A DNA stretch of 64,000 nt from Actinomadura sp. NBRC 104412 (lineage in GTDB: Bacteria; Actinomycetota; Actinomycetes; Streptosporangiales; Streptosporangiaceae). The stretch lies in NCBI RefSeq assembly GCF_030269515.1, contig NZ_BSTM01000013.1:62001-126000 (forward strand), given 5' to 3'. Below, piece after piece: positions 10,405 to 39,396 of the stretch. Numbering within the stretch: position 1 is the first letter of the stretch; each line of letters opens with the position of its first letter. Both the position numbers and the translations under genes were made by a program. The notes below the pieces were generated by a model. That model saw nothing but the letters and a program-made list of their open reading frames with translations. It had not been told where the DNA came from and did not search any database.

Positions 10405-11445
10405 TCACCGGCCGGCACGCCCTGACCGCGGGGACGTCTCCTTGCGCAGGCTTGGGACCGTGGACGGGAACAGCCCGTCGAACCCGTCGGCCAGCACCAG
10501 ATCGGTGAACCAGCGCTCGGTATCGGGCCGGTTGAGCGGCAGCCGGCGCAACGGCTGGCTGTGCCGGGAGATCCACGATATGGCCACCTCATCGCAGAAG
10601 CCGGTCGCCCCATGGAACTGGTGGCCGGCCCGCAGCACCACCTCGGCGGCCCGCAGCCCGGCCACCCGGGCGGCGGCGACATCGGCCAGCAGGCCCGCGC
10701 GGCGGCGGTCGGCCGACCAGAGCGCGTAGAGAGCCTGCTGCTCGAACATCTGCATGGCGGTCACGGCGTCGGCCAGCCGGTGCTGCACCGCCTGGTTCTC
10801 GATGATCGGGGCGCCGAACTGGACGCGCTCGCGGGCGTGGGTCACCGTCAGCTCCAGTGCGCTCTCCAGCATGCCCAGCAGCGTGAAGATCTGCAGGTGC
10901 AGCGCCAGCGCGAGCGTGACCGGCGAGCCGGGAACGGGCTCTCCGGGGATGAGGTCGGCGACGAAGGGGCCGAGGCGGCCGCCGCGCCGTGGCCCGGAGG
11001 CCGCGTCCGCCCGGGCGGGTGCCAGGCTGCCCGACGTCCCGGCCAGCCACCAGTCGAGCGGCAGGTCGCCCATGTTGACCCGGAAGCGACCGCCGCGGCC
11101 CGCCCGGCGGTCGTCGACCACCGCGAGCGCGGCGCCGGCGGTGCCGTGCGCGGCCACCATGTTGCCCGCCACACGCTCGGCCAGCGGGTACGGCAGCGCG
11201 AACGCCCCGGCCGAGCGGCAGGCCGCCGCGGCCGCTTGCAGTTCTTGCTCCCCCGCGTCGGGGACGAGTTCGAGGAGCCCGAGCGAGTCCAACAGCGGCT
11301 CGATCTCGCGAGTCCGCACCTCCGGCTCGGACTCCGCGCGCATCACCAGGTCGAACCCGCCGGCGTCTCGCAGGGCCCGGCGGACGACCGCGTCCAGCTC
11401 GCGGGCCTCCTCGTCGAAGTCGGGCATGAAACGCTGGTCAGCCAT
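10405..11445 (-). CDS. Acyl-CoA dehydrogenase, short divergent subunit
   Basis: 346 aa and the most divergent of the four dehydrogenases. Weak N-terminal and middle domains are followed by a recognisable C-terminal helical region (HARERVQFGAPIIENQAVQHRLAD, HQFHGATGFCDEVAISWISRH). The length matches the small subunits of heteromeric acyl-CoA dehydrogenases. The start overlaps the end of the 394-aa dehydrogenase by 8 bases, so the two are a likely complex acting on a bulky acyl-CoA. Confidence 0.85.
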   Translation of the reverse strand: MADQRFMPDFDEEARELDAVVRRALRDAGGFDLVMRAESEPEVRTREIEPLLDSLGLLELVPDAGEQELQAAAAACRSAGAFALPYPLAERVAGNMVAAHGTAGAALAVVDDRRAGRGGRFRVNMGDLPLDWWLAGTSGSLAPARADAASGPRRGGRLGPFVADLIPGEPVPGSPVTLALALHLQIFTLLGMLESALELTVTHARERVQFGAPIIENQAVQHRLADAVTAMQMFEQQALYALWSADRRRAGLLADVAAARVAGLRAAEVVLRAGHQFHGATGFCDEVAISWISRHSQPLRRLPLNRPDTERWFTDLVLADGFDGLFPSTVPSLRKETSPRSGRAGR

Positions 11446-12622
11446 GTCGGACGAGGGTCCTTCCGATCAGGTTCCGCTGCATCTCGAGCGTCCCGGAGGC
11501 GATGGTCGCGGCCTGCGCGTAGCGCCAGTGGTCCTCGACGGCGGCGGCGAAGCGCGCCAGGCGATGCTCCGGATCGGCCGGGTCGGCGGCGGCGGCCGGA
11601 TCGGCCGGTCCGAGCGCGGCCGAACCCAGCAGGTCCATGAGGACCTCGGCGACGCTCTGGTCGAGCAGCGTCGCGGCGACCCGGTAGGCGGCGACGACGG
11701 CGGGGTCGGTGTGACCTTCCGCCTGGGCCTGGAGCACCTTGTACGCGAGAAGCCGCACCCCCCGCGTCTCCAGCAGCGCGGTCGCCCAGCGGGTGACCTG
11801 GCTCTCCGGAAGGTCGTCCCATACGTCCGCGAGGGCCTGGGGGGCCAGTTGGAGCAGCCGATCGCAGCGGGCGTAACGGGAGATCCCGACGCGCTCGTAA
11901 GCGAGGACGTCCCGGACCACCGCCCAGCCCTCGCCCACCTCCCCGAGGACGCCCGAGTCGTCGACGGCGACGTCGTCGAAGAAGACCTCGTTGAGGTGGT
12001 GCGGTCCGAGCATGCTCCGGATCGGGCGGACCGTGATGCCCGGCGAGTCGACGGGCAACAGGAACACCGTGATGCCGCGCCTCCGGTGACCGCCGGTGCG
12101 GGCCAGCAGGAAGCACCACTGGGCGATGCCCGCGTAGGACGTCCAGCACTTCTGACCGTTGATCCGCCAGCCGCCGCCGTCCGCCCTGGTCGCCGTGGTT
12201 CGCAGGGCGGGGAGGTCGGATCCGGCGTCCGGCTCGCTGAAGCCCTGGCACCAGATGACCTCGCCGGCGGCGATGGGCGGCAGGAACCGCGCGCGCTGCT
12301 CCGGGGTGCCGTGCTTCATGATCGCCGGACCGACCCAGTTGACGCCCATGTACTGGGCTCCGCGCGGCTCGTGGTGCGCCCACATCTCCTCGCGCATGAC
12401 GGTCTGTTCCCAGATCGAGCCGCCGCGCCCGCCGTACTCCTCCGGCCAGGCCATCGTCAGCAGGCCATCGCGGGCCAGTACACGGCAGAACGCCTGCGCC
12501 ACTTCCAGGTCGCGGGGGTCGTCGGTGAAGGCGCCGAGGAAGTCCGCGGGCACATGCTCCGCGATCAGTTCGCGCAGCCGGGCGCGCAGCGCGTCGGACT
12601 CGGCTCCGAACTCGAATTCCAT
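11438..12622 (-). CDS. Acyl-CoA dehydrogenase, long-type subunit
   Basis: 394 aa. Family landmarks are WPEEYGGRGGSIWEQTVMREEM, IWCQGFSEPDAGSDLPALRTTATR, GQKCWTSYAGIAQWCFLLART and IASGTLEMQRNLIGRTLVRHG. As in the 414-aa enzyme, the classical Glu position before GT is not Glu (Ser). It overlaps the 346-aa subunit gene by 8 bases, forming the second heteromeric pair of the operon. It starts 9 bases below the monooxygenase stop. Probable reaction: FAD-dependent alpha,beta-dehydrogenation of an acyl-CoA. Confidence 0.9.
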   Translation of the reverse strand: MEFEFGAESDALRARLRELIAEHVPADFLGAFTDDPRDLEVAQAFCRVLARDGLLTMAWPEEYGGRGGSIWEQTVMREEMWAHHEPRGAQYMGVNWVGPAIMKHGTPEQRARFLPPIAAGEVIWCQGFSEPDAGSDLPALRTTATRADGGGWRINGQKCWTSYAGIAQWCFLLARTGGHRRRGITVFLLPVDSPGITVRPIRSMLGPHHLNEVFFDDVAVDDSGVLGEVGEGWAVVRDVLAYERVGISRYARCDRLLQLAPQALADVWDDLPESQVTRWATALLETRGVRLLAYKVLQAQAEGHTDPAVVAAYRVAATLLDQSVAEVLMDLLGSAALGPADPAAAADPADPEHRLARFAAAVEDHWRYAQAATIASGTLEMQRNLIGRTLVRHG

Positions 12623-29512: not shown

Positions 29513-31252
29513 CTAGGCGCGGGTGGCGAGCCAGGCTTTCCACGACCCGTGGACGGTGATGTCCCGGCCTGAGGCGATCGCGTCGGCGGTGGCGCCGAAG
29601 CCGACCACGCGGCGGCCGTCCGAGAGTTCGACCTGGCCCAGCGTCATGGGTGCGGGGAGGGCGGCCAGGAAGCGGCCCAGCGCGCCCGGGGTGAGCTGCC
29701 AGACCTCCCCCGCGATGGACCTTCCGCCCGTGGGGACGCGGCTCATCCCGGGTTTGGGGGGTGTCGTGTCCAGCGCAGCGAGGCGGTACGCCGGGGCGGT
29801 CGTGGCCTCCCCCGCCCAGCGGGCGCCCAGGGCCCGTAGTTCCCCTTCCAGGGGCTGGCCGCGCAGATGCGCGCCGACGACGAACAGGTCCACGGCCCCG
29901 GTGATCGCGGCGGGCCACGGCAGCGACGGGGCGTCCATGGACGGGGTGAGGTCGGCGCCCGGGAACGTCTCCGCGGGAGGGTCCGCCGGGACCATGACGC
30001 GCGAGGCGAGGTCGAGGGCGACGGCGTCGTGGAACGTGCGGGCGACGACGGTGACGCCGAACTGGGCGGCACCGGCCTCTCCCTCGTCGACCGTCCCGGA
30101 CGGGACGGCGACGGCGCACAGGTCGAGCAGGTTGCAGAAGTTGGTGTAGGTGCCGACGCGGGCGTTCGTGCCGAGCGGGTCGGCGGCGACCTCGGCCACA
30201 GACGGGTGGAAGGGCGCGGTCGGCACGAGGAGGGCGTCGAAGCCCTCCAGCAGCGCCATGCACTCCCGGTGCAGGTCCTTCAGGCGGGCCTGGTCGCGGG
30301 AGAGCGCCGAGCCCGTGACCAGGCCCGCCCTGTGGATGATCCCCGCGACCGTCGGGTCGAGGCCGGCGTCGGCGTCGTCGAGGCGGGCGTCGACGAAGTC
30401 GCCGACGGCGGCGTGCCGTTCTGCGACGAGGGCGCCGTCGTACAGCAGGCGCGCGGTCTCCAGGAAGCGGGCGAAGGGGATCGGTTCGACCGTGCAGCCA
30501 TCGGCCCGGAGCCGGTCGGCCGCCGCGGTGAACGCCTCGGCCCAGCCCGGGGCCATGGCGGGCAGTTCATCCGGGATGGCGACGCGGGCCGCGTACGGGG
30601 CGGCGAGCGGGGCGTCGGCGGGCCAGGCCCGTGTCCCGGGCCCGCCCGCCATCACCGACATGGCCAGGGAGGCGGTGCCCAGATCGCGGGCGAAGATCGT
30701 CAGCGTGTCGTAGGAGCGGCACGCCGGGACGACCCCGTCCGTGGAGACGATGCCGAGGGTGGGCTTGATCCCCACGATGCCGTTGAACGCGGCCGGGACG
30801 CGCCCGGAGCCGGCGGTGTCGGTGCCGATCGCGATGTCGGCCTCGCCCGTGGCGACGGCCACGGCGGACCCGGACGACGACCCGCCGGACACATGCGTGG
30901 CGCGGTGGGCGGAACGCACGCGTCCGTAGGGGCTGCGCTGCCCGACGAGGCCGGTGGCGAACTGGTCGAGGTTGGTGGCGCCGACCAGTGCGGCACCGGC
31001 GGCGCGCAGCCGCGCCACGGCGGGCGCGTCCTCCGCGGCCGGTCCCCGGGCGAACCCGGGGCAGGCTGCGGTCGTCAGGACGCCTCGGACGTCCACGTTG
31101 TTCTTGACGGCCAGCCGCAGCCCGGCCAGCGGACCGGCGGCCGCGCCGGCCGTGATCTCCGCTTCCGGCAGGCGCCAGATCCACGCCTCGGGACGCGGTG
31201 ACGCCGCGTCCTCGGCGAGCCGCCGCGCGCCGGTCGTGGTCTCGATGGTCAT
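29513..31252 (-). CDS. atzF: Allophanate hydrolase
   Basis: 579 aa. The N-terminal amidase-signature domain has Lys50 (AVKNNVD), the Ser-rich GGSSSG at 123-128 and the nucleophile Ser149 in DTAGSGR. The C-terminal third (from about residue 455, FVVGAHLRGQPLEGELRALGA) is the AtzF/DurA-specific domain. It hydrolyses allophanate to ammonia and CO2. The ATG overlaps the stop of the carboxylase gene (ATGA). It is the last enzyme of the guanidine/urea route encoded here. Confidence 0.94.
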   Translation of the reverse strand: MTIETTTGARRLAEDAASPRPEAWIWRLPEAEITAGAAAGPLAGLRLAVKNNVDVRGVLTTAACPGFARGPAAEDAPAVARLRAAGAALVGATNLDQFATGLVGQRSPYGRVRSAHRATHVSGGSSSGSAVAVATGEADIAIGTDTAGSGRVPAAFNGIVGIKPTLGIVSTDGVVPACRSYDTLTIFARDLGTASLAMSVMAGGPGTRAWPADAPLAAPYAARVAIPDELPAMAPGWAEAFTAAADRLRADGCTVEPIPFARFLETARLLYDGALVAERHAAVGDFVDARLDDADAGLDPTVAGIIHRAGLVTGSALSRDQARLKDLHRECMALLEGFDALLVPTAPFHPSVAEVAADPLGTNARVGTYTNFCNLLDLCAVAVPSGTVDEGEAGAAQFGVTVVARTFHDAVALDLASRVMVPADPPAETFPGADLTPSMDAPSLPWPAAITGAVDLFVVGAHLRGQPLEGELRALGARWAGEATTAPAYRLAALDTTPPKPGMSRVPTGGRSIAGEVWQLTPGALGRFLAALPAPMTLGQVELSDGRRVVGFGATADAIASGRDITVHGSWKAWLATRA

Positions 31253-34200
31253 TCCGCCCCTTCCGCGTGCGGCGCCAGCACCACGAGCGCCTCGCCGGGG
31301 GCGACCTGGTCGCCCGTGCCCGCGAGGATCGCGTCGACGACGCCCGCGCGGGGAGCGGTGATGGGTGCCTCCATCTTCATGGCCTCCAGGGTGACCAGGG
31401 TCTGCCCGGCCTCGACGATGTCGCCGGGCGCGACGTCGACCTTCCACACGTTGGCGACGAACGGCGCGTCCACGCGGGTGCCGCCCTCGGGGACGTGGAC
31501 GGTCGCCGGCGCGGGCACGGTGGCCGCCTCCGCGGCCGCCGCGCGCTCGAACTCGCCCGCCGCCTCCCACGCGTCGCGTTCGGCGCCGAACGCGGCGGCC
31601 TGGGCGGCGCGGAACGCGGCGATGGACTCGGCGTTCTCCTCCAGGAACCGCTCGTGCTCGGCAAGGGAGAAAGTCCCCTCGGCGGCCTCCAGCCCGCGGC
31701 GCCCGGCGGCCACGTCGGCGCGGATGTCGAGGAGTTCCTCGGCGGAGACGGGATACCAGGAGATCCGGTCGAAGAACCTGAGCAGCCACGGGTCCCGGTC
31801 GTCGTCGGGGTGCCTGCGCCAGACCTGGTGGGTGCGCCCGACGAACTGGTAGCCGCCGGGGCCCTCCATGCCGTAGACGCACAGGTAGGCGCCGCCGATG
31901 CCGACGGAGTTCTCCGCCGTCCAGGTGCGGGCCGGGTTGTACTTGGTCGTCACGAGGCGGTGGCGGGGGTCCAGCGGGGTCGCGACGGGCGCGCCCAGGT
32001 AGACGTCGCCGAGGCCGAGCACGAGGTAGGTGGCCTCGAAGACGGTCGCGTAGACGTCGTCGACGGAGTCCAGGCCGTTGATCCGGCGGATGAACTCGAT
32101 GTTCCAGGGGCACCAGGGCGCGTCGTCGCGCACGCCGGCCATGTACCGTTCGATGGCCTCGCGGGTGGCGGGGTCGTCCCAGCTCAGCGGCATGCGGACG
32201 GTGCGCGAGGGCACGGTGAGCTCGGAGACCGGCGGCAGGGACCGCTCGATCTCCTCCAGCAGCCCGAGCAGCGCGGGCACGGGCAGCACGGACGGGTCCA
32301 CGTGCACCTGGAGGGAGCGGATGCCCGGCGTGATGTCCAGGACGCCGCGTTCGGCGCGTTCCTCCAGCGCGGTGTGGAGGGCGTGCACGCGGGCGCGCAG
32401 GCGCAGGTCGAGGACCATCTCGCCGTACTCCACCAGGACCGAGTCGTCGCCCTGGCGCCGGTAGGTCACCGGCGTCTCGCCGTCGCCGAGGCGGCGCAGC
32501 ACGCCGTCGTCGCCGTCGCCGCCCGGGACGAACGAGGGCGGCGAGGGCAGATCGAGGCCGCGGGGCGCGGGCGCGTCCGCCAGCCGGACGGGCACGAACC
32601 GCACGGTGTCGCCGGGACGCAGTTGCCCCAGCTTCCAGCGGTCGGCGGAGACGACGGTGAGCGGGCACACGAACCCGCCGAGGCTGGGCCCGTCCGGGCC
32701 GAGCAGGATGGGGGTGTCGCCGGTGAAGTCCAGGGCGCCCACTGAGTAGGGGGTGTCGTGGATGTTGGAGGGGTGCAGGCCGGCCTCTCCGCCGTCCGGG
32801 CGGGCCCAGGCCGGCTTGGGCCCCATCAGGCGCACGCCCGTGCGCGCGGAGTTGAAGTGGACCTCGTAGTCGGTGGCGTAGAGCCGGTCGATGTCCGCGC
32901 GGGTGAAGAACTCGGGGGCCGCGTGCGGGCCCTCGGTGACGATCAGTTGCCAGTGCGTGCCGAACCGGGGACGGCGGGACGCCGGGACGGGCGCGGCCTC
33001 CGCGCCTTCGGCGTCCCCGCATGTCCGGAGGACGTCCCCGGGACGCAGGGCGCGACCGCCGTGACCGCCGAACCCGCCCAGGGTGAACGTCGCCGCCGAC
33101 CCCAGATAGGCGGGGACGTCCAGGCCGCCGCCCGCGAACGCGATGTAGCTGCGCAGCCCGGCCTCGGGCGCGCCCACGTCCAGCGTGGCGCCTGCGGGGA
33201 CGCGCACCGGCTCCCACATCGGCACCGGAGCCCCGTCGACGGTGACCCGGGACGGGGCACCGGCCACGCACACGGTGGTGTCGTGGGTGAAGATGAGTTC
33301 GGGGCCGCCCGCGGTGCACTCCAGGCCGGCGGCGTTCTCGTCGTTGCCGAGCGCGAGGTTGGCCAGGCGCAGCGAGCGGTCGTCCATGGCGCCCGACGGC
33401 GGCACGCCGACCTGCCAGTGGCCCAAACGGCCGTCGGCGTCCTGCACGGTGGTCATGAGGCCCGCGCGCCCCACGGTGATGCGGGGCTCGGGGTCTCCCA
33501 GGCCGGTCAGGGTGGACGTGGTGTGCTCGGCGGCCCGGAACTCCGGCAGGCGCACGGCGGCGCGCAGCATCCCGAGGTTGACCTCGATGCCGTCCAGGCG
33601 GGTCGCGGCGAGCGCGCCGCCGAGGCGGTCCAGCGCGTCGGCGCGGTCGGCGCCCGTGGCGATGACCTTGGCGAGCAGGGGGTCGTAGGCGGTGGTGACG
33701 TCGGTGCCCGTCGTGACCCACGCGTCGACGCGGACACCGTCCCCCTCGGGCAGGTCCACGCGGGTGAGCGGGCCCGCGGACGGGCGGAAGCCGTTGGCCG
33801 GGTCCTCGGCGTAGACGCGCGCCTCGACGGCGTGGCCGCGCACGGGCACGGCGCCCGTCCGCTCGTACGGGGCGAGGAAGGCGGCGTCGCCACCGGCCAG
33901 GCGCAGCATCCACTCGACGAGGTCGACACCGGTGACCTGTTCGGTCGCGGGGTGCTCGACCTGGAGGCGGGCGTTGACCTCCAGGAAGGACGCCTCCCGC
34001 CGCACGGGGTCGTAGACGAACTCGACGGTCCCCGCCGACCGGTAGCCGATCCCGGCGGCCAGGGCCCGGGACGAGTCGTGCAGCCGCCGCCTCACCTCGG
34101 CGGGCAGCGCCGGGGCCGGCGCCTCCTCGACGACCTTCTGGTTGCGGCGCTGAAGGGAGCAGTCGCGGTCGCCGAGGGTCACGACGCCGCCCGCCCCGTC

Positions 34201-34869
34201 CCCGAAGATCTGGACCTCGACGTGGCGGGCGTCGGCGACGTACCGCTCGGCGAACACCCCGCCGGACCCGAAGGAGCGCTCGGCCAGGGACGTGACGCGG
34301 GCGTAGGCCGCGCGCAGCTCGGCGGCGTCCCGGCACACGCTCATGCCGATGCCGCCGCCCCCGCCCGTGGCCTTGACCATCACCGGGTACCCGATGCGCT
34401 CGACCTCGGCCACCGCGTGCTCGGCGTCCCGGAGCAGGCCGGTGCCGGAAAAGACCGGCACGCCCGCGGCCACCGCCGCCGCCCGCGCCGTGTGCTTGTC
34501 GCCGAAGGTACGCAACTGCGCGGGGGTCGGGCCGACGAACACCATTCCGGCGCCTTCGACCGCCTCGGCGAAGTCGGCGTCCTCGGACAGGAAGCCGCAT
34601 CCGGGGTGGACGGCGTCGGCGCCGGTCTCCTTGGCGGCGCGCAGCACGGCCTCGGCGTTCAGGTACGACCGCGCGGGCGCGGTGGGGCCGAGCAGGACGG
34701 CCTCGTCCGCGGCCAGGACGTGCGCGGCGCCCCGGTCGGCCTCGGAGAACACGGCGACGGTGCGCAGGCCGAGAGATCTGGCGGACCGGATCACGCGGCA
34801 GGCGATCTCGCCCCGGTTGGCGACCAGGACCGTGGAGACGCCGAGCCCCCCGTGTGGCCGGTCAGCCAC
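31249..34869 (-). CDS. uca: Biotin-dependent urea/guanidine carboxylase
   Basis: 1206 aa from a GTG. Order of domains: biotin carboxylase (residues 12-450; [40 protein letters not shown]), KipA/KipI-like carboxyltransferase part (about 480-1050; [46 protein letters not shown]), and a C-terminal biotinyl domain with EAMKM. Annotated as urea carboxylase in most genomes. When next to two DUF1989 genes, homologues have been shown to carboxylate guanidine instead. The 8-base overlap upstream and ATGA overlap downstream make one operon. Confidence 0.93.
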   Translation of the reverse strand: [1206 protein letters not shown]

Positions 34870-35551
34870 GGTGCACCACCATCTCCACGCGGGACGGGTC
34901 GAAGCCGTTGCACGGGTTGTTGATCTGCGGGCAGTTCGACACCACCGCCAGCGTGTCCTTCTCCGCGCGCAGCGACAGGGCCAGGCCGGGCGCGGAGATG
35001 CCGTCGACGATGCCGAGCGCGCCGTCCGGGTCGACCGGGACGTTCATGAACCAGTTGATGTTGGAGACCTGGTCGCGCTTGCCCATCCCGTACTTGGACA
35101 GCTCGTTGATGAAGTTGTCGGCGCAGGCGTGCTGGGCGTAGGTGTGGTGGCCGTAGCGCAGCGTGTTGGACTCCCGGGAGCAGGCGCCCCCGAGGGTGTC
35201 GTGGCGGCCCACGCCGTCGGCGGCGATGACCAGCAGGGCCTCGCCCTCGTTGTCGCGCAGGACCGAGCCGGTGGTCAGGAACACCGAGTCCTGCTCCTGA
35301 AGCGTGACCTGGGCGCTGTACGCGCGCGAGTGGTCGTGGGCGTCGTAGGCGAGGAAGTCGACGGCCTGGTTGCCGTCCAGGTCCACGATGGTCAGGACCT
35401 CCCCCGCCGTCAGGACGCGGGACCAGGGGGCGCGGGGGGCCACGGTCTCGCGGTGCACGATCTCGCCGAACCGCTCCACGGCCGCGGTGATGGACGCCTC
35501 GGCGGCGGCCGGGTCGCCCGGGGTCTTCGTGCCGAGATGGGTGACGCTCAT
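34862..35551 (-). CDS. DUF1989 protein, carboxyguanidine deiminase subunit type (urea carboxylase-associated)
   Basis: 229 aa, DUF1989. Landmarks are GEVLTIVDLDGNQAVDFLAYDAHDHSRAYSA, GRHDTLGGACSRESN and NPCNGFDPSRVEMVV. It is paired with a second DUF1989 gene by ATGA overlap and sits directly before the carboxylase. Pairs like this were formerly called urea carboxylase-associated proteins 1 and 2, and have been shown to form carboxyguanidine deiminase (CgdAB), turning carboxyguanidine into allophanate and ammonia. Which subunit this is was not determined. Confidence 0.88.
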   Translation of the reverse strand: MSVTHLGTKTPGDPAAAEASITAAVERFGEIVHRETVAPRAPWSRVLTAGEVLTIVDLDGNQAVDFLAYDAHDHSRAYSAQVTLQEQDSVFLTTGSVLRDNEGEALLVIAADGVGRHDTLGGACSRESNTLRYGHHTYAQHACADNFINELSKYGMGKRDQVSNINWFMNVPVDPDGALGIVDGISAPGLALSLRAEKDTLAVVSNCPQINNPCNGFDPSRVEMVVHRG

Positions 35552-36381
35552 CGGGTGCTCCGTCCTGCGCGGTGGTCGGCGGTGTTCTCGAAGGCGCGGC
35601 GGCCCTCGGGGGTGGCCGTCCACTCCGGGTCCTCGGGGGTGGTGACGCGGTCGCGCCAGGCCAGCACCTCCAGCGCGCCGCAGGTGTACCGCTCGCGCGG
35701 GTCGAGAGGGTGGGCGGCGTTGGCGACGAGCACGACGACGGGCAGCTCGGTGCGCAGCGTGACCCGCGCGCCCGCGCCCGCCGACCCCTGCCAGACGGGA
35801 CGCCCGTCGTCGATGCGCACGCCCTGGAAGAACGAGATCGCCGGGGGCACGTCGCGCCGCTCCAGGCCGTTCTTGAGGGCCCCGTTGACCAGGAGCTCGC
35901 GTCCGGCGGGGCTGGGGCCGTGCACGGAGCCGTCCCCGTAGCGCCGCTCGTTGCGGGCCTTGGTGGACGCGCCGTAGATCGTGTCGTGGTGACCGGAGGT
36001 GTCCTCGACGATCGTCGCGAGCACCCGTGCCTGGTCGCTGAGCAGCAGGTAGCCCGCGTGCGGGTACACCTGCCACTGGATCTTGGCGGTGTCGGCGATG
36101 TTCAGCCGCTCCCACGGCATGTCCGCGTGGTACAGCACGACCTGCGCGCAGGCGTCACCGGTGACGTCGGTCAGGCGCACCCGCATGCCGGGAGCCAGCA
36201 CGCGATGGGCGTAGCCGCCGCCGGGCAGGCGGTCGCTCCAGACGACGTCCTCCGGTGCGACACCGTCCGGGACGTCGGTCTGCGCCGAGGCCGGGACGGT
36301 CGGCGCAGTGTAGACGACGGTCCCCTCCTGGGCACGGGCGTGTTCCCTGGCCCCTGCCGTCGTGGCGGTCGCTGCGGGCAC
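35548..36381 (-). CDS. DUF1989 protein, second carboxyguanidine deiminase subunit type
   Basis: 277 aa from a GTG with AGGAGG 6 bases upstream. DUF1989 features: PGMRVRLTDVTGDACAQVVLYHADMPWERLN, SGHHDTIYGAS and a C-terminal YTCGALEVLAWRD. First gene of the four-gene minus-strand operon (two DUF1989 proteins, carboxylase, allophanate hydrolase). An inverted repeat lies 18 bases upstream, and a divergent TetR gene follows. Expected to act with the 229-aa protein. Confidence 0.88.
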   Translation of the reverse strand: MPAATATTAGAREHARAQEGTVVYTAPTVPASAQTDVPDGVAPEDVVWSDRLPGGGYAHRVLAPGMRVRLTDVTGDACAQVVLYHADMPWERLNIADTAKIQWQVYPHAGYLLLSDQARVLATIVEDTSGHHDTIYGASTKARNERRYGDGSVHGPSPAGRELLVNGALKNGLERRDVPPAISFFQGVRIDDGRPVWQGSAGAGARVTLRTELPVVVLVANAAHPLDPRERYTCGALEVLAWRDRVTTPEDPEWTATPEGRRAFENTADHRAGRSTR

Positions 36382-36398
36382 GGCTTACCTCCTCCGAA

Positions 36399-36418
36399 TT
36401 TCTGTCGATCAACAGAAA
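36399..36418. promoter_or_regulatory. TetR operator candidate of the guanidine/urea operon
   Basis: Perfect 7-bp arms TTTCTGT and ACAGAAA separated by 6 bases, 18 bases before the first DUF1989 gene. A related site with identical spacing lies before the symporter gene at 38653. Confidence 0.7.
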
Positions 36419-36496
36419 GTGAAACGGGCGCGGTGACGCGCCAGATCTCAGACGTGTGAACGGCATGTAAATCGGTGGTCCTGCTACGTTCCGTAC

Positions 36497-37102
36497 ATGG
36501 CAGGACGCGGACGACCCCGGACCAAGGGCCCCTCTCTCTCGGGCAGCACGGAGCAGGACATCCTGGACGCGGGGGCCGACCTCTTCTGCACGGCGGGGTT
36601 CGGCTCGGTGAGCACCTACCGGCTGGCCAAGGCGGCGGGCATCTCCCAGGCGACGCTGTACCACTACTTCGCCAACAAGCACGAGGTGCTGCTCGCCCTG
36701 CTCCTGCAGACGGTCCGGCCGTCGATCGTCATGGCGGAGCGGATCGCCGGCGAGAACGGCCTGCCGGCCCGCGAGCGGCTGCGCCGGCTGTGCGCCTACG
36801 ACGCCGACCTCCTGGCGACCAGCCCCCGCAACCTCGGCGCGCTCTACCTGCTGCCCGAGGTCGCCGACGAGGCCCTGTCCCCCTTCCGCGCCGAGCGCGA
36901 CCGCCTGGTCGGCGCCTACCGCGCCCTGGTCGGGCAGTGCCTGCCGGACGCCCCGGAGCCCGAGCACGAGGCCGTCGCCGACCTCGTGTTCGGGCTCGTC
37001 GAGAGCGTGATCCTGTGCCGCCAGCGCGCGGGCGGCGCCCCGATGCCCGCCGGCACCGGGGACCGCATCGCCGAGGCCGCGCTGCGGATCGTCGGCCGCT
37101 GA
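36497..37102 (+). CDS. TetR-family regulator of the guanidine/urea genes
   Basis: 201 aa. DNA-binding domain at about residues 20-65: EQDILDAGADLFCTAGFGSVSTYRLAKAAGISQATLYHYFANKHEVL. The C-terminal half has LCAYDADLLATSPRNLGALYLLPEV. It lies between the DUF1989/carboxylase operon (divergent) and the symporter gene (convergent), both of which carry a TTTCTGT-type site upstream. It is very likely their local repressor. The inducer could be guanidine, urea or a later intermediate. Confidence 0.9.
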   Translation: MAGRGRPRTKGPSLSGSTEQDILDAGADLFCTAGFGSVSTYRLAKAAGISQATLYHYFANKHEVLLALLLQTVRPSIVMAERIAGENGLPARERLRRLCAYDADLLATSPRNLGALYLLPEVADEALSPFRAERDRLVGAYRALVGQCLPDAPEPEHEAVADLVFGLVESVILCRQRAGGAPMPAGTGDRIAEAALRIVGR

Positions 37103-37110
37103 GCGGCCGG

Positions 37111-38631
37111 TCACACCCCGGCGACGGGCACGCCGCCCGGAGCCTCCGGCTCGGGCACGTCCACCACCCGGTGGTCGAAGGACCGCAGGTCGCGCTCCTC
37201 CTCGTCGCGCGGGCGGCCGGCCAGCGAGGCCAGGACGAACGCGCCGACGCCGACCACCCCGGCGAGCAGCGTGGCCCATCCGTCGAACCCCTCCCCCACC
37301 AGGCCGTTCTCGATGTGGAAGAGGTCGTTCGGCACGCCGTAGAGGGTCGGGGTCAGCGCGAGGAACACCAGCCGGACGACCAGCCCCACGCCCATGCCCA
37401 CCAGCGCGCCCGTCGTCGTCGACCGCCGCCAGAACAGCCCGAGCAGGAACGGGCCGATCAGGCAGGCCAGCATGAGGTCGAACGCGAGCGTCAGCAGGAT
37501 GCCGGTCTGCGAGACCCGTACGGCCAGGAGCGTGGCGCACACCGCGACGGGCAGCATCGCGATGCGCACCCACCGCAGCAGCGGGTCCTTGCGGCCCGGC
37601 TCGACGCCGCGCTTGAGACCGGCGATGTTGCGGACCGTCACCGCCGAGGTGGCCAGCACGGCACCCGACCCGGTGGAGAAGGACGCGGCCACGACCCCGG
37701 ACAGCACGAGCACGGCGAGCAGCATCGGCGCCCCGCCGTCGAGCAACTGGTAGACGACGGGCCCGTCGGCGGGCTTCAGCCCGAGCTCGGCGGCGCCGGT
37801 CAGCGCGATCAGCGACCACACCACGCCGATGAGCGCGGTGAAACCGGCGCCGACGAAACAGGCGCGGCGCGCCGCCTCGGGACTGCGGGCTCCGAAGATG
37901 CGCTGCATGAAATCGATGGCGACCAGGTCCCCGATGCCGAGCGAGACCAGCGTCGCCCAGTTGATGGCGGCGCCCTGCGCCGGATCGGTGAGCTGCCCAA
38001 GGTCGAAGGGCCCGGCCCCGTCCGGGACGCTGATCCCGTGGTCGGCGACCACCCAGCCGAACAGCGCGAGGGTGGCGCCGATGGTGATGGCGGCCTGGAT
38101 GACGGCGGTGTAGACGTCCGAGAACAGCCCGCCGCCGACGGTGTAGGCCAGGATGAGCGCGACGGCGACGACGACGCCCAGCTCGTACGGGACCCCGGCG
38201 AACCTCTCCATCAGGAACCCGAGGGCGACCAGGTTCCCGGCCAGCAGCACGGTGAACGCCACGACCATGAGCACGCTCGCGCCGACCTCGACGCGGCGCG
38301 TGTAGCGGCGCGCGAAGAAGTCCGCGAGGGTCATCAGCCCCATCCGGTTCATCGGCTTGGCCAGGAAGAGCCCGGCCAGCAGCAGGCAGATGGCCAGCCC
38401 CAGCGCCAGCGAGGCGCCCGCCCAGAACCCCAGGTCGGCCGACAGGTCGGTGTTCCCGATGGTGGCGTTGGAGTCGACGGCGGCGGTGGCCAGCGCGACC
38501 GACACCAGCGGCACCCCCAGTTGCCGCCCGGCGACGAGATAGTTGGTGGAATCGCCGTCGACGAAGCGGGCCACCGCGATGCCGACCACGAGCACGAGCA
38601 GAACCGTCAGGCCCACCCCGGCGATGATCAT
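37111..38631 (-). CDS. Sodium:solute symporter (SSS family)
   Basis: 506 aa with about 13 membrane helices. SSS hallmarks: DSTNYLVAGRQLGVP near the N-terminus, YTVGGGLFSDVYTAVIQAAI, LVAIDFMQRIFGARSPEAARRACFVGA and VLSGVVAASFSTGSGAVLATSAVTVRNI. Similar to transporters for urea, acetate or small cations. The operator-like site 22 bases upstream links it to the TetR and the guanidine/urea operon, so uptake of the nitrogen source is the likely job. Confidence 0.87.
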   Translation of the reverse strand: MIIAGVGLTVLLVLVVGIAVARFVDGDSTNYLVAGRQLGVPLVSVALATAAVDSNATIGNTDLSADLGFWAGASLALGLAICLLLAGLFLAKPMNRMGLMTLADFFARRYTRRVEVGASVLMVVAFTVLLAGNLVALGFLMERFAGVPYELGVVVAVALILAYTVGGGLFSDVYTAVIQAAITIGATLALFGWVVADHGISVPDGAGPFDLGQLTDPAQGAAINWATLVSLGIGDLVAIDFMQRIFGARSPEAARRACFVGAGFTALIGVVWSLIALTGAAELGLKPADGPVVYQLLDGGAPMLLAVLVLSGVVAASFSTGSGAVLATSAVTVRNIAGLKRGVEPGRKDPLLRWVRIAMLPVAVCATLLAVRVSQTGILLTLAFDLMLACLIGPFLLGLFWRRSTTTGALVGMGVGLVVRLVFLALTPTLYGVPNDLFHIENGLVGEGFDGWATLLAGVVGVGAFVLASLAGRPRDEEERDLRSFDHRVVDVPEPEAPGGVPVAGV

Positions 38632-38652
38632 TCGTCCTCCTGGACGCTCGAA

Positions 38653-38672
38653 TTTCTGTCAAGCGACCGATA
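38653..38672. promoter_or_regulatory. Second TetR operator candidate (symporter promoter)
   Basis: TTTCTGT at 38653-38659, then 6 bases, then ACCGATA, 5 of 7 matches to the ACAGAAA arm at 36412. It has the same spacing and nearly the same distance to the start codon as the first site. Confidence 0.55.
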
Positions 38673-38818
38673 GTCGCGTCCAGTTAGCCCGCCTGCTGTT
38701 ACGCCGAAGGCGGCCCCATGCAACGGCCAGGTAAACCAGTCCTCACAGCCCCCCGCGCGCCGAGTGCGGGCCGGCGGCCGCCGCGGCAGGCATCAGTGGA
38801 TCGGCCCCAGAAACACCA

Positions 38819-38849
38819 CCGGCCCGCAGCTTGCCGAGCTGCGGGCCGG
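38819..38849. terminator. Hairpin terminator
   Basis: Perfect 13-bp stem (38819-38831 and 38837-38849) with a 5-base loop. It lies 35 bases beyond the stop of the minus-strand gene at 38884 and insulates it from the symporter promoter. Confidence 0.75.
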
Positions 38850-38883
38850 GGCACGGTGAAGGATCGAGCGGACCGTCACGCTT

Positions 38884-39396
38884 CTAGTCGCGGAGTTCGA
38901 ACACCCAGTCTCCGGGGATTCCGCCGATATGCCAGTCCTCGGACGTCAGGCGATCCCGGATCTCCAGATCCACCATCTCGTTCCTGTCGCCATAGCGTGA
39001 CGCGCAGACGACGGTGTAGAGGCCCACACGTCGCTTCTCGAAGGAGGTGCGGTCGCATTGCGTGGCGGTCACGGTCCTCGCGTATTCGTTGAGCGCGTCC
39101 TCCGAGAGCCCGAACCTGACCTTGTGCGGCACCCCTCCCATCAGAAGAGCGATTGTGCCCACCAGCAGTACCGGAGCCGCAGAGACCCTCACCAGGAAAG
39201 CAGTGTCGTCAAGCGGCGACCGCAGGCACGCCAGGACCAGCCGCACGATGATGGCGGGCACAGCGACCACCAGGACGAGGAAGGCTGCGAACTCGTAGTT
39301 GAAGCCGAGTCCGACCGTCCACTCCGACCAGAGCAAATAGACACAGGCCAACCCCACCGAACCGATGAACACCCATCCTGGCGCTTTACCGAGCAT
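38884..39396 (-). CDS. Hypothetical membrane protein
   Basis: 170 aa. Three hydrophobic helices fill the first 90 residues (WVFIGSVGLACVYLLW; FAAFLVLVVAVPAIIVRLVLACL; VSAAPVLLVGTIALLMG). A soluble tail of about 75 residues ends in DWHIGGIPGDWVFELRD and carries two Cys (CDRTSF, VCASRYGD). No family recognised. The ATG at 39396 starts just before helix 1; an upstream start at 39465 is possible. Terminator follows. Codon use is a little less GC-rich than that of its neighbours. Confidence 0.6.
   Translation of the reverse strand: MLGKAPGWVFIGSVGLACVYLLWSEWTVGLGFNYEFAAFLVLVVAVPAIIVRLVLACLRSPLDDTAFLVRVSAAPVLLVGTIALLMGGVPHKVRFGLSEDALNEYARTVTATQCDRTSFEKRRVGLYTVVCASRYGDRNEMVDLEIRDRLTSEDWHIGGIPGDWVFELRD

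Follow-up and report, generated by a model that had tools for sequence, protein, structure and literature searches.

A predicted guanidine-assimilation operon of Actinomadura and its putative repressor AmtR

Introduction

Which nitrogen compound is broken down by an actinobacterial operon whose enzyme families carry urea-based names, and what controls that operon, are the questions raised by a locus of Actinomadura sp. NBRC 104412. Operons of this type were described in 2013 as 'urea carboxylase' operons under the control of AmtR, and the AmtR effector was not found (PMC4222082). The gene set of the AmtR-controlled operon was tabulated for ten actinobacteria, the enzyme functions were called highly speculative, and the word 'guanidine' is absent from the main text of that report (PMC4222082). 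A 2025 review lists guanidine-binding transcription factors as still to be found (PMC12186494). In the literature collection searched, no relevant paper was found that brings AmtR and guanidine together. AmtR control of the operon type is therefore already known, under its urea name (PMC4222082), and the new elements here are a survey of co-occurrence in which AmtR was found only with carboxylases of the guanidine (Asp) type, a guanidine-III riboswitch at an exporter gene of the same genome, and acidic residues conserved in the AmtR effector domain. The analysis was centred on a 64-kb stretch of DNA (the window; G+C 71.5%).

Results

Organization of the locus

The six genes of the locus were found at the coordinates and with the identities given in a preliminary description of the same DNA. 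Four genes on the minus strand are transcribed in the order UAAP1, UAAP2, carboxylase and allophanate hydrolase, with overlaps of 4-8 bp between successive genes, and all four products passed the curated NCBIfam cut-offs. The first gene (35548..36381, GTG start) encodes the DUF1989 protein UAAP1 (P0001; TIGR03425, 267 bits against a cut-off of 206) and overlaps by 4 bp the gene of a second DUF1989 protein, UAAP2 (34862..35551; P0002; TIGR03424, 308 bits against 285). These are followed by a biotin-dependent carboxylase (31249..34869; P0003; TIGR02712, 1697.5 bits against 1303.85) with a biotinylation motif, AMKM, at 1163, and by an allophanate hydrolase of the AtzF type with amidase and AH_C domains (29513..31252; P0004; TIGR02713, 600 bits against 511). 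A TetR-family gene (36497..37102, plus strand; P0005, TetR_N domain) is divergent to the operon, and a sodium:solute symporter gene (37111..38631, minus strand; P0006, SSF domain PF00474) converges on it. The coordinates and family scores bear out the claimed order of DUF1989, DUF1989, biotin carboxylase and allophanate hydrolase, and the TetR gene and sodium symporter that had been placed at the operon are both present.

The DUF1989 proteins encoded side by side next to the carboxylase gene, both above their NCBIfam cut-offs, fit the subunits of a carboxyguanidine deiminase (CgdA/CgdB) and are predicted to form one. The six genes include no dealkylating or ureohydrolase gene and make up a minimal guanidine set.

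Substrate specificity of the carboxylase

Guanidine and urea carboxylases are told apart by Asp or Asn, respectively, at Kluyveromyces lactis position 1330, and Asp is required at position 1584 (PMC11410670, PMC12186494); the substrate rule has few tested enzymes behind it. The carboxylase was aligned to the K. lactis enzyme with numbering from 5i8i. Asp714 stands at the N1330 position (YSVGALDFTGD against YSLGAINFTGD), and Asp955, in the motif LGLGDV, is the equivalent of D1584. Because Asp714 occupies the place of the Asn of urea carboxylase, the protein is very probably a guanidine carboxylase by the published residue rule. A separate urease is encoded in the same genome. The preliminary description had favoured guanidine over urea as substrate and had suggested an active-site alignment with characterised carboxylases; the two Asp residues came from the alignment to the K. 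lactis enzyme, and the Asp at the specificity position, together with the two DUF1989 genes, supports the guanidine assignment.

Identification of the regulator

The best PDB match of the TetR protein in a sequence search was Mycobacterium smegmatis AmtR (5e57, 4.2e-36), followed by Corynebacterium glutamicum AmtR (1e-29 to 1e-27); the first TetR protein other than AmtR came at 3e-12. An AlphaFold2 model (pLDDT 95) was compared with the PDB using Foldseek, and the top 14 matches were all AmtR. NCBIfam gave weak matches only and no specific family; a new or unclassified TetR protein was considered and rejected, as the PDB sequence search had identified AmtR. By sequence and predicted structure the regulator is AmtR. 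Direct binding of M. smegmatis AmtR at msmeg_2184-2189 and derepression in an amtR mutant have been reported (PMC4222082), and by analogy the Actinomadura protein would bind DNA and repress.

Operator sites

A predicted AmtR operator, TTTCTGTCGATCAACAGAAA (36399..36418), lies between amtR and the UAAP1 gene, 17 bp before the start codon of the latter. A second, TTTCTGTCAAGCGACCGATA (38653..38672), lies 21 bp before the start codon of the symporter gene. The operon site is a perfect palindrome (TTTCTGT-CGATCA-ACAGAAA), and the symporter site (TTTCTGT-CAAGCG-ACCGATA) has two mismatches to the palindrome. Shuffled windows contained 0 palindromic sites of this kind. The three copies of TTTCTGT in the window are all at this locus. 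Across the whole 7.85-Mb genome the two operators were the only sites at two mismatches or fewer; a reversed control pattern also gave 2 genome sites, so chance alone would yield about two, but would not be expected to put both at the operon and symporter promoters. In the structural paper of Petridis et al. (2016), the AmtR motif is reportedly CTGTC-N4-GACAG, and no PII interaction is said to occur. Compared with a motif of that type, the sites read CTGTC-GATC-AACAG and CTGTC-AAGC-GACCG, one mismatch each. Both also fit the published AmtR consensus TAtCTGTCa-n2-cGACAGATAT (PMC8864220) and are predicted AmtR boxes.

Both sites are conserved in Actinomadura meyerae. In a relative whose AmtR is 45% identical (G040), boxes stand before the operon and before an APC amino-acid permease that is related to TIGR03428, scores below the model cut-off and is not homologous to the SSF symporter. 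As the box is kept before non-homologous transporters, both transporters are argued to be AmtR targets with one job. The loci of 80 relatives and the window, together 1.57 Mb, contained 44 exact copies of the box TCTGTC-N4-GACAGA and 49 single-mismatch copies, and the reversed control gave 0 of either kind. This conservation supports the earlier proposal that the TTTCTGT-N6 sites join operon and symporter in one regulon. A chance repeat was rejected on the grounds of genome-wide uniqueness and conservation in relatives.

No match to a consensus promoter was found when the intergenic region was scanned. GlnR-like motifs were seen upstream of the operon's AmtR box (TTTACATGCCGTTCAC, AC-n9-AC, 36456..36471, minus strand; conserved in A. 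meyerae) and upstream of the symporter's box (TTTACCTGGCCGTTGC, 38720..38735, minus strand). The pattern TTTACnnGnC..GTTnCa lies on the upstream side of each box in the two Actinomadura genomes, and its resemblance to GlnR sites is no more than suggestive, the GlnR consensus being loose.

Boxes were also recorded at other genes of the relatives. An exact box (L069:10673) precedes a metallo-beta-lactamase-fold gene (10700-11533) adjoining amtR, and at L067 and L070 a box precedes a gene of 260-270 aa, the L067 protein having no Pfam match. Two mycobacterial amtR genes that do not lie at the operon (L098:9930, L101:9917) share a divergent promoter with a long ORF, at L098 an oligopeptide ABC transporter ATPase by Pfam, and carry two AmtR-type boxes (one exact, one with two mismatches). 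A one-mismatch box (L232:1950) upstream of a gene (2041-2625) for the BioY transporter of biotin, the carboxylase cofactor, may be chance.

Co-occurrence of AmtR and carboxylase type

Within the genus Actinomadura the carboxylase was found in 4 of 65 genomes, and AmtR in the same 4; the operon is thus accessory. From the GTDB species collection 207 AmtR relatives were found and 80 were kept. A readable carboxylase was present at 47 of these 80 loci, all with Asp and none with Asn. A class-wide survey was made of 395 genomes plus the genus. Asp-type loci carried the DUF1989 pair in 39/39 cases and AmtR within the locus in 36/39, with AmtR elsewhere in the genome in the remaining three. Asn-type loci carried the pair in 0/11 and AmtR in 0/11. 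For AmtR at Asp versus Asn loci the Fisher test gave about 1e-8, a value that overstates independence as the genomes are related. Two genomes (G095 and G426) hold both types, with AmtR at the Asp-type copy only. A search of thirty genomes whose amtR is not near a carboxylase gene located a carboxylase elsewhere in 22, and 22/22 were Asp. AmtR accompanied Asp-type (guanidine) operons exclusively, and never Asn-type, in the class survey.

Transporters at 84 Asp-type loci were SSF in 16, APC in 44, both in 0 and neither in 24; the SSF symporter occupies the slot held by the APC permease (TIGR03428) in most relatives.

In Mycobacterium/Gordonia-type genomes (L083, L084, L086, L091, L202, L215-L223, L225, L226 and others) the Asp-type carboxylase consists of the carboxyltransferase part only (about 670 aa, covering TIGR02712 positions 445-1120); having neither a biotin carboxylase nor a biotin carrier domain, it would depend on a partner acting in trans. 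In an Acidipropionibacterium MAG the carboxylase (L105:4854-8433) is broken up over several reading frames, by decay or assembly error.

Riboswitches and the exporter

No Rfam riboswitch was detected in the 64-kb window, nor in 36050-39000 at relaxed thresholds, and a hidden riboswitch at the operon was rejected on the latter result. The genome has no guanidine-I riboswitch. A guanidine-III riboswitch (L183:8446-8512, contig C12 near 190,445, minus strand; 53 bits against an Rfam cut-off of 36) lies directly upstream of an SMR exporter gene on the same contig (L183:8102-8425, minus strand), whose best NCBIfam match, SugE (Gdx type), scored 109 of 126 bits and so below cut-off. The same arrangement was found in three congeners with the operon (L184, L185, L186). 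The riboswitch would then serve export in these bacteria, and the AmtR repressor assimilation. The preliminary description had seen in a TetR-controlled, riboswitch-free version a different regulatory solution. The absence of a riboswitch at the operon stands, but the TetR protein is AmtR, such control had already been published (PMC4222082), and the genome has a guanidine-III riboswitch elsewhere.

Two carboxylase loci were found with a guanidine-I riboswitch, in genomes without AmtR; at the operon, a riboswitch and AmtR seem to take each other's place, two cases being few. Carboxyltransferase-only homologues downstream of guanidine-I (L196 in G079, L197 in G149) have Met at the specificity position (IMLSGG and IMLAGD), neither Asp nor Asn. 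In Corynebacterium variabile, with a single AmtR in the genome, an SMR-type exporter gene (L108:16067-16384, minus strand) lies just past the AmtR-linked guanidine operon.

Conserved residues of the AmtR effector domain

Effector domains were compared for 110 AmtR proteins, 77 from beside Asp-type operons and 33 others. Asp102 and Glu169 were present in 110/110 and Glu121 in 108/110, and all three are also present in M. smegmatis AmtR. The C. glutamicum protein has Glu at 102, Ile at 121 and Met at 169, so that two of the three acids are replaced. Acidic residues conserved in this way would be suited to hold a guanidinium cation in a putative pocket. A rooted FastTree tree places C. glutamicum AmtR within the guanidine-operon AmtRs, where, on a long branch, it is the sister of the AmtR encoded at the C. 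variabile operon (support 0.82), and from this position the global regulator would be the derived form.

Discussion

The locus is read, with good confidence, as a guanidine-assimilation regulon repressed by AmtR. Guanidine would probably be imported by the SSF symporter, a candidate importer, and carboxylated by the predicted biotin-dependent guanidine carboxylase. The two DUF1989 subunits would deiminate the carboxylated product to allophanate, and allophanate hydrolase would cleave it, with three ammonium released overall. The divergently encoded AmtR would bind TTTCTGT-N6-ACAGAAA just upstream of the first gene of the operon, as well as the weaker symporter site, and so repress both. Activation by GlnR under nitrogen limitation is likely, the GlnR-like motifs pointing weakly to it. 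The operon very probably lets this soil actinobacterium draw nitrogen from guanidine.

It is highly improbable that the operon breaks down urea, as a urea carboxylase and allophanate hydrolase pair with accessory DUF1989 proteins. The database names of TIGR02712, TIGR03424 and TIGR03425 would have it so, and the AmtR literature calls it a urea operon; the specificity residue, however, is Asp and not Asn, genuine Asn-type loci of the same class have neither DUF1989 nor AmtR, the genome has its urease, and binding of M. smegmatis AmtR to DNA was unaffected by urea, as by amino acids, at 0.5-5 mM (PMC4222082). The urea-carboxylase reading was rejected for the Asp residue and the contrast with Asn-type loci. 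Action on a substituted guanidine (e.g. methylguanidine or a breakdown product of a biguanide) and not on guanidine itself is very unlikely. Such a substrate is brought to mind by the addition of demethylating enzymes to guanidine carboxylase operons elsewhere (PMC12508155), and the SSF symporter is a candidate, not an established, guanidine importer; against it, the gene set of the locus is the minimal one for guanidine.

What AmtR senses is a closer matter. The operon may well serve guanidine while AmtR acts without small-molecule sensing, as a constitutive brake that GlnR overrides when the cells are starved of nitrogen, or that is lifted by an antisense RNA or, as in C. glutamicum, by PII, and this is a quite possible state of affairs, if short of probable. 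Nitrogen control in M. smegmatis persists in an amtR deletion and is lost without GlnR, which binds the same promoter as AmtR (PMC4222082), an antisense RNA to amtR has been reported (PMC4617892), and GlnR-like motifs lie upstream of both boxes. The lack of effect of urea and amino acids on AmtR agrees with such a brake, but guanidine and the pathway intermediates are not among the effectors reported as tested. Retention of amtR beside the operon in most Asp-type loci also speaks against it, as do three acidic residues that are invariant or nearly so and of which two are replaced in the PII-gated C. glutamicum AmtR. Co-occurrence with Asp-type operons, a riboswitch on the exporter and the conserved acidic residues make AmtR a strong candidate for the missing guanidine-sensing transcription factor. 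That guanidinium or a pathway-derived compound is its inducer has, in our estimate, almost an even chance. We put forward tentatively, as somewhat less than evenly probable, that AmtR of GlnR-type actinobacteria is the first guanidine-sensing transcription factor, binding guanidinium through Asp102, Glu121 and Glu169, that guanidine is sensed twice in these bacteria, for export by the riboswitch and for assimilation by AmtR, and that C. glutamicum AmtR evolved from it by loss of the pocket and gain of PII control.

The regulator is a known one and the locus belongs to the AmtR operon family; what the finding adds is a new reading of that family, as guanidine operons, which joins the AmtR and guanidine literatures and makes the missing effector of AmtR directly testable. 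Outside Corynebacterium the effector was not found in 2013, when urea and amino acids were tried, the operon being regarded as one for urea breakdown. If the operon serves guanidine, both the AmtR effector gap and the guanidine transcription factor gap could be addressed by one gel-shift on a protein already purified and crystallised.

Comparison with known systems

The AmtR operon of M. smegmatis (msmeg_2184-2189, with AmtR msmeg_4300), Streptomyces avermitilis, Rhodococcus jostii, Nocardia farcinica and others (PMC4222082) has the same regulator family and operator and the same gene set of two unknown frames, 'urea carboxylase', amidase and permease. It differs in that its permease is of the APC type, where Actinomadura has an SSF symporter, in that amtR is adjacent and divergent in Actinomadura, and in that it was read as serving urea where guanidine is read here. 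C. glutamicum AmtR (PDB 5dxz, 5dy0, 5mqq; PMC8864220) is a homologous repressor with a similar box (CTAT-N6-ATAG), but governs a global nitrogen regulon, is released by the PII protein GlnK and has no equivalents of Glu121 and Glu169. Asn-type pairs of urea carboxylase and allophanate hydrolase of the same class (L187-L195, L224, L227) are homologous to the Actinomadura enzymes and differ by their Asn and by having neither DUF1989 nor AmtR. The riboswitch-run guanidine carboxylase operons (guanidine-I/II) of Raoultella and Klebsiella (PMC12186494) have the same pathway of carboxylase, carboxyguanidine deiminase and allophanate hydrolase; compared with these, the Actinomadura operon is without a riboswitch and an ABC importer, has a protein repressor instead, and its genome carries guanidine-III at the exporter.
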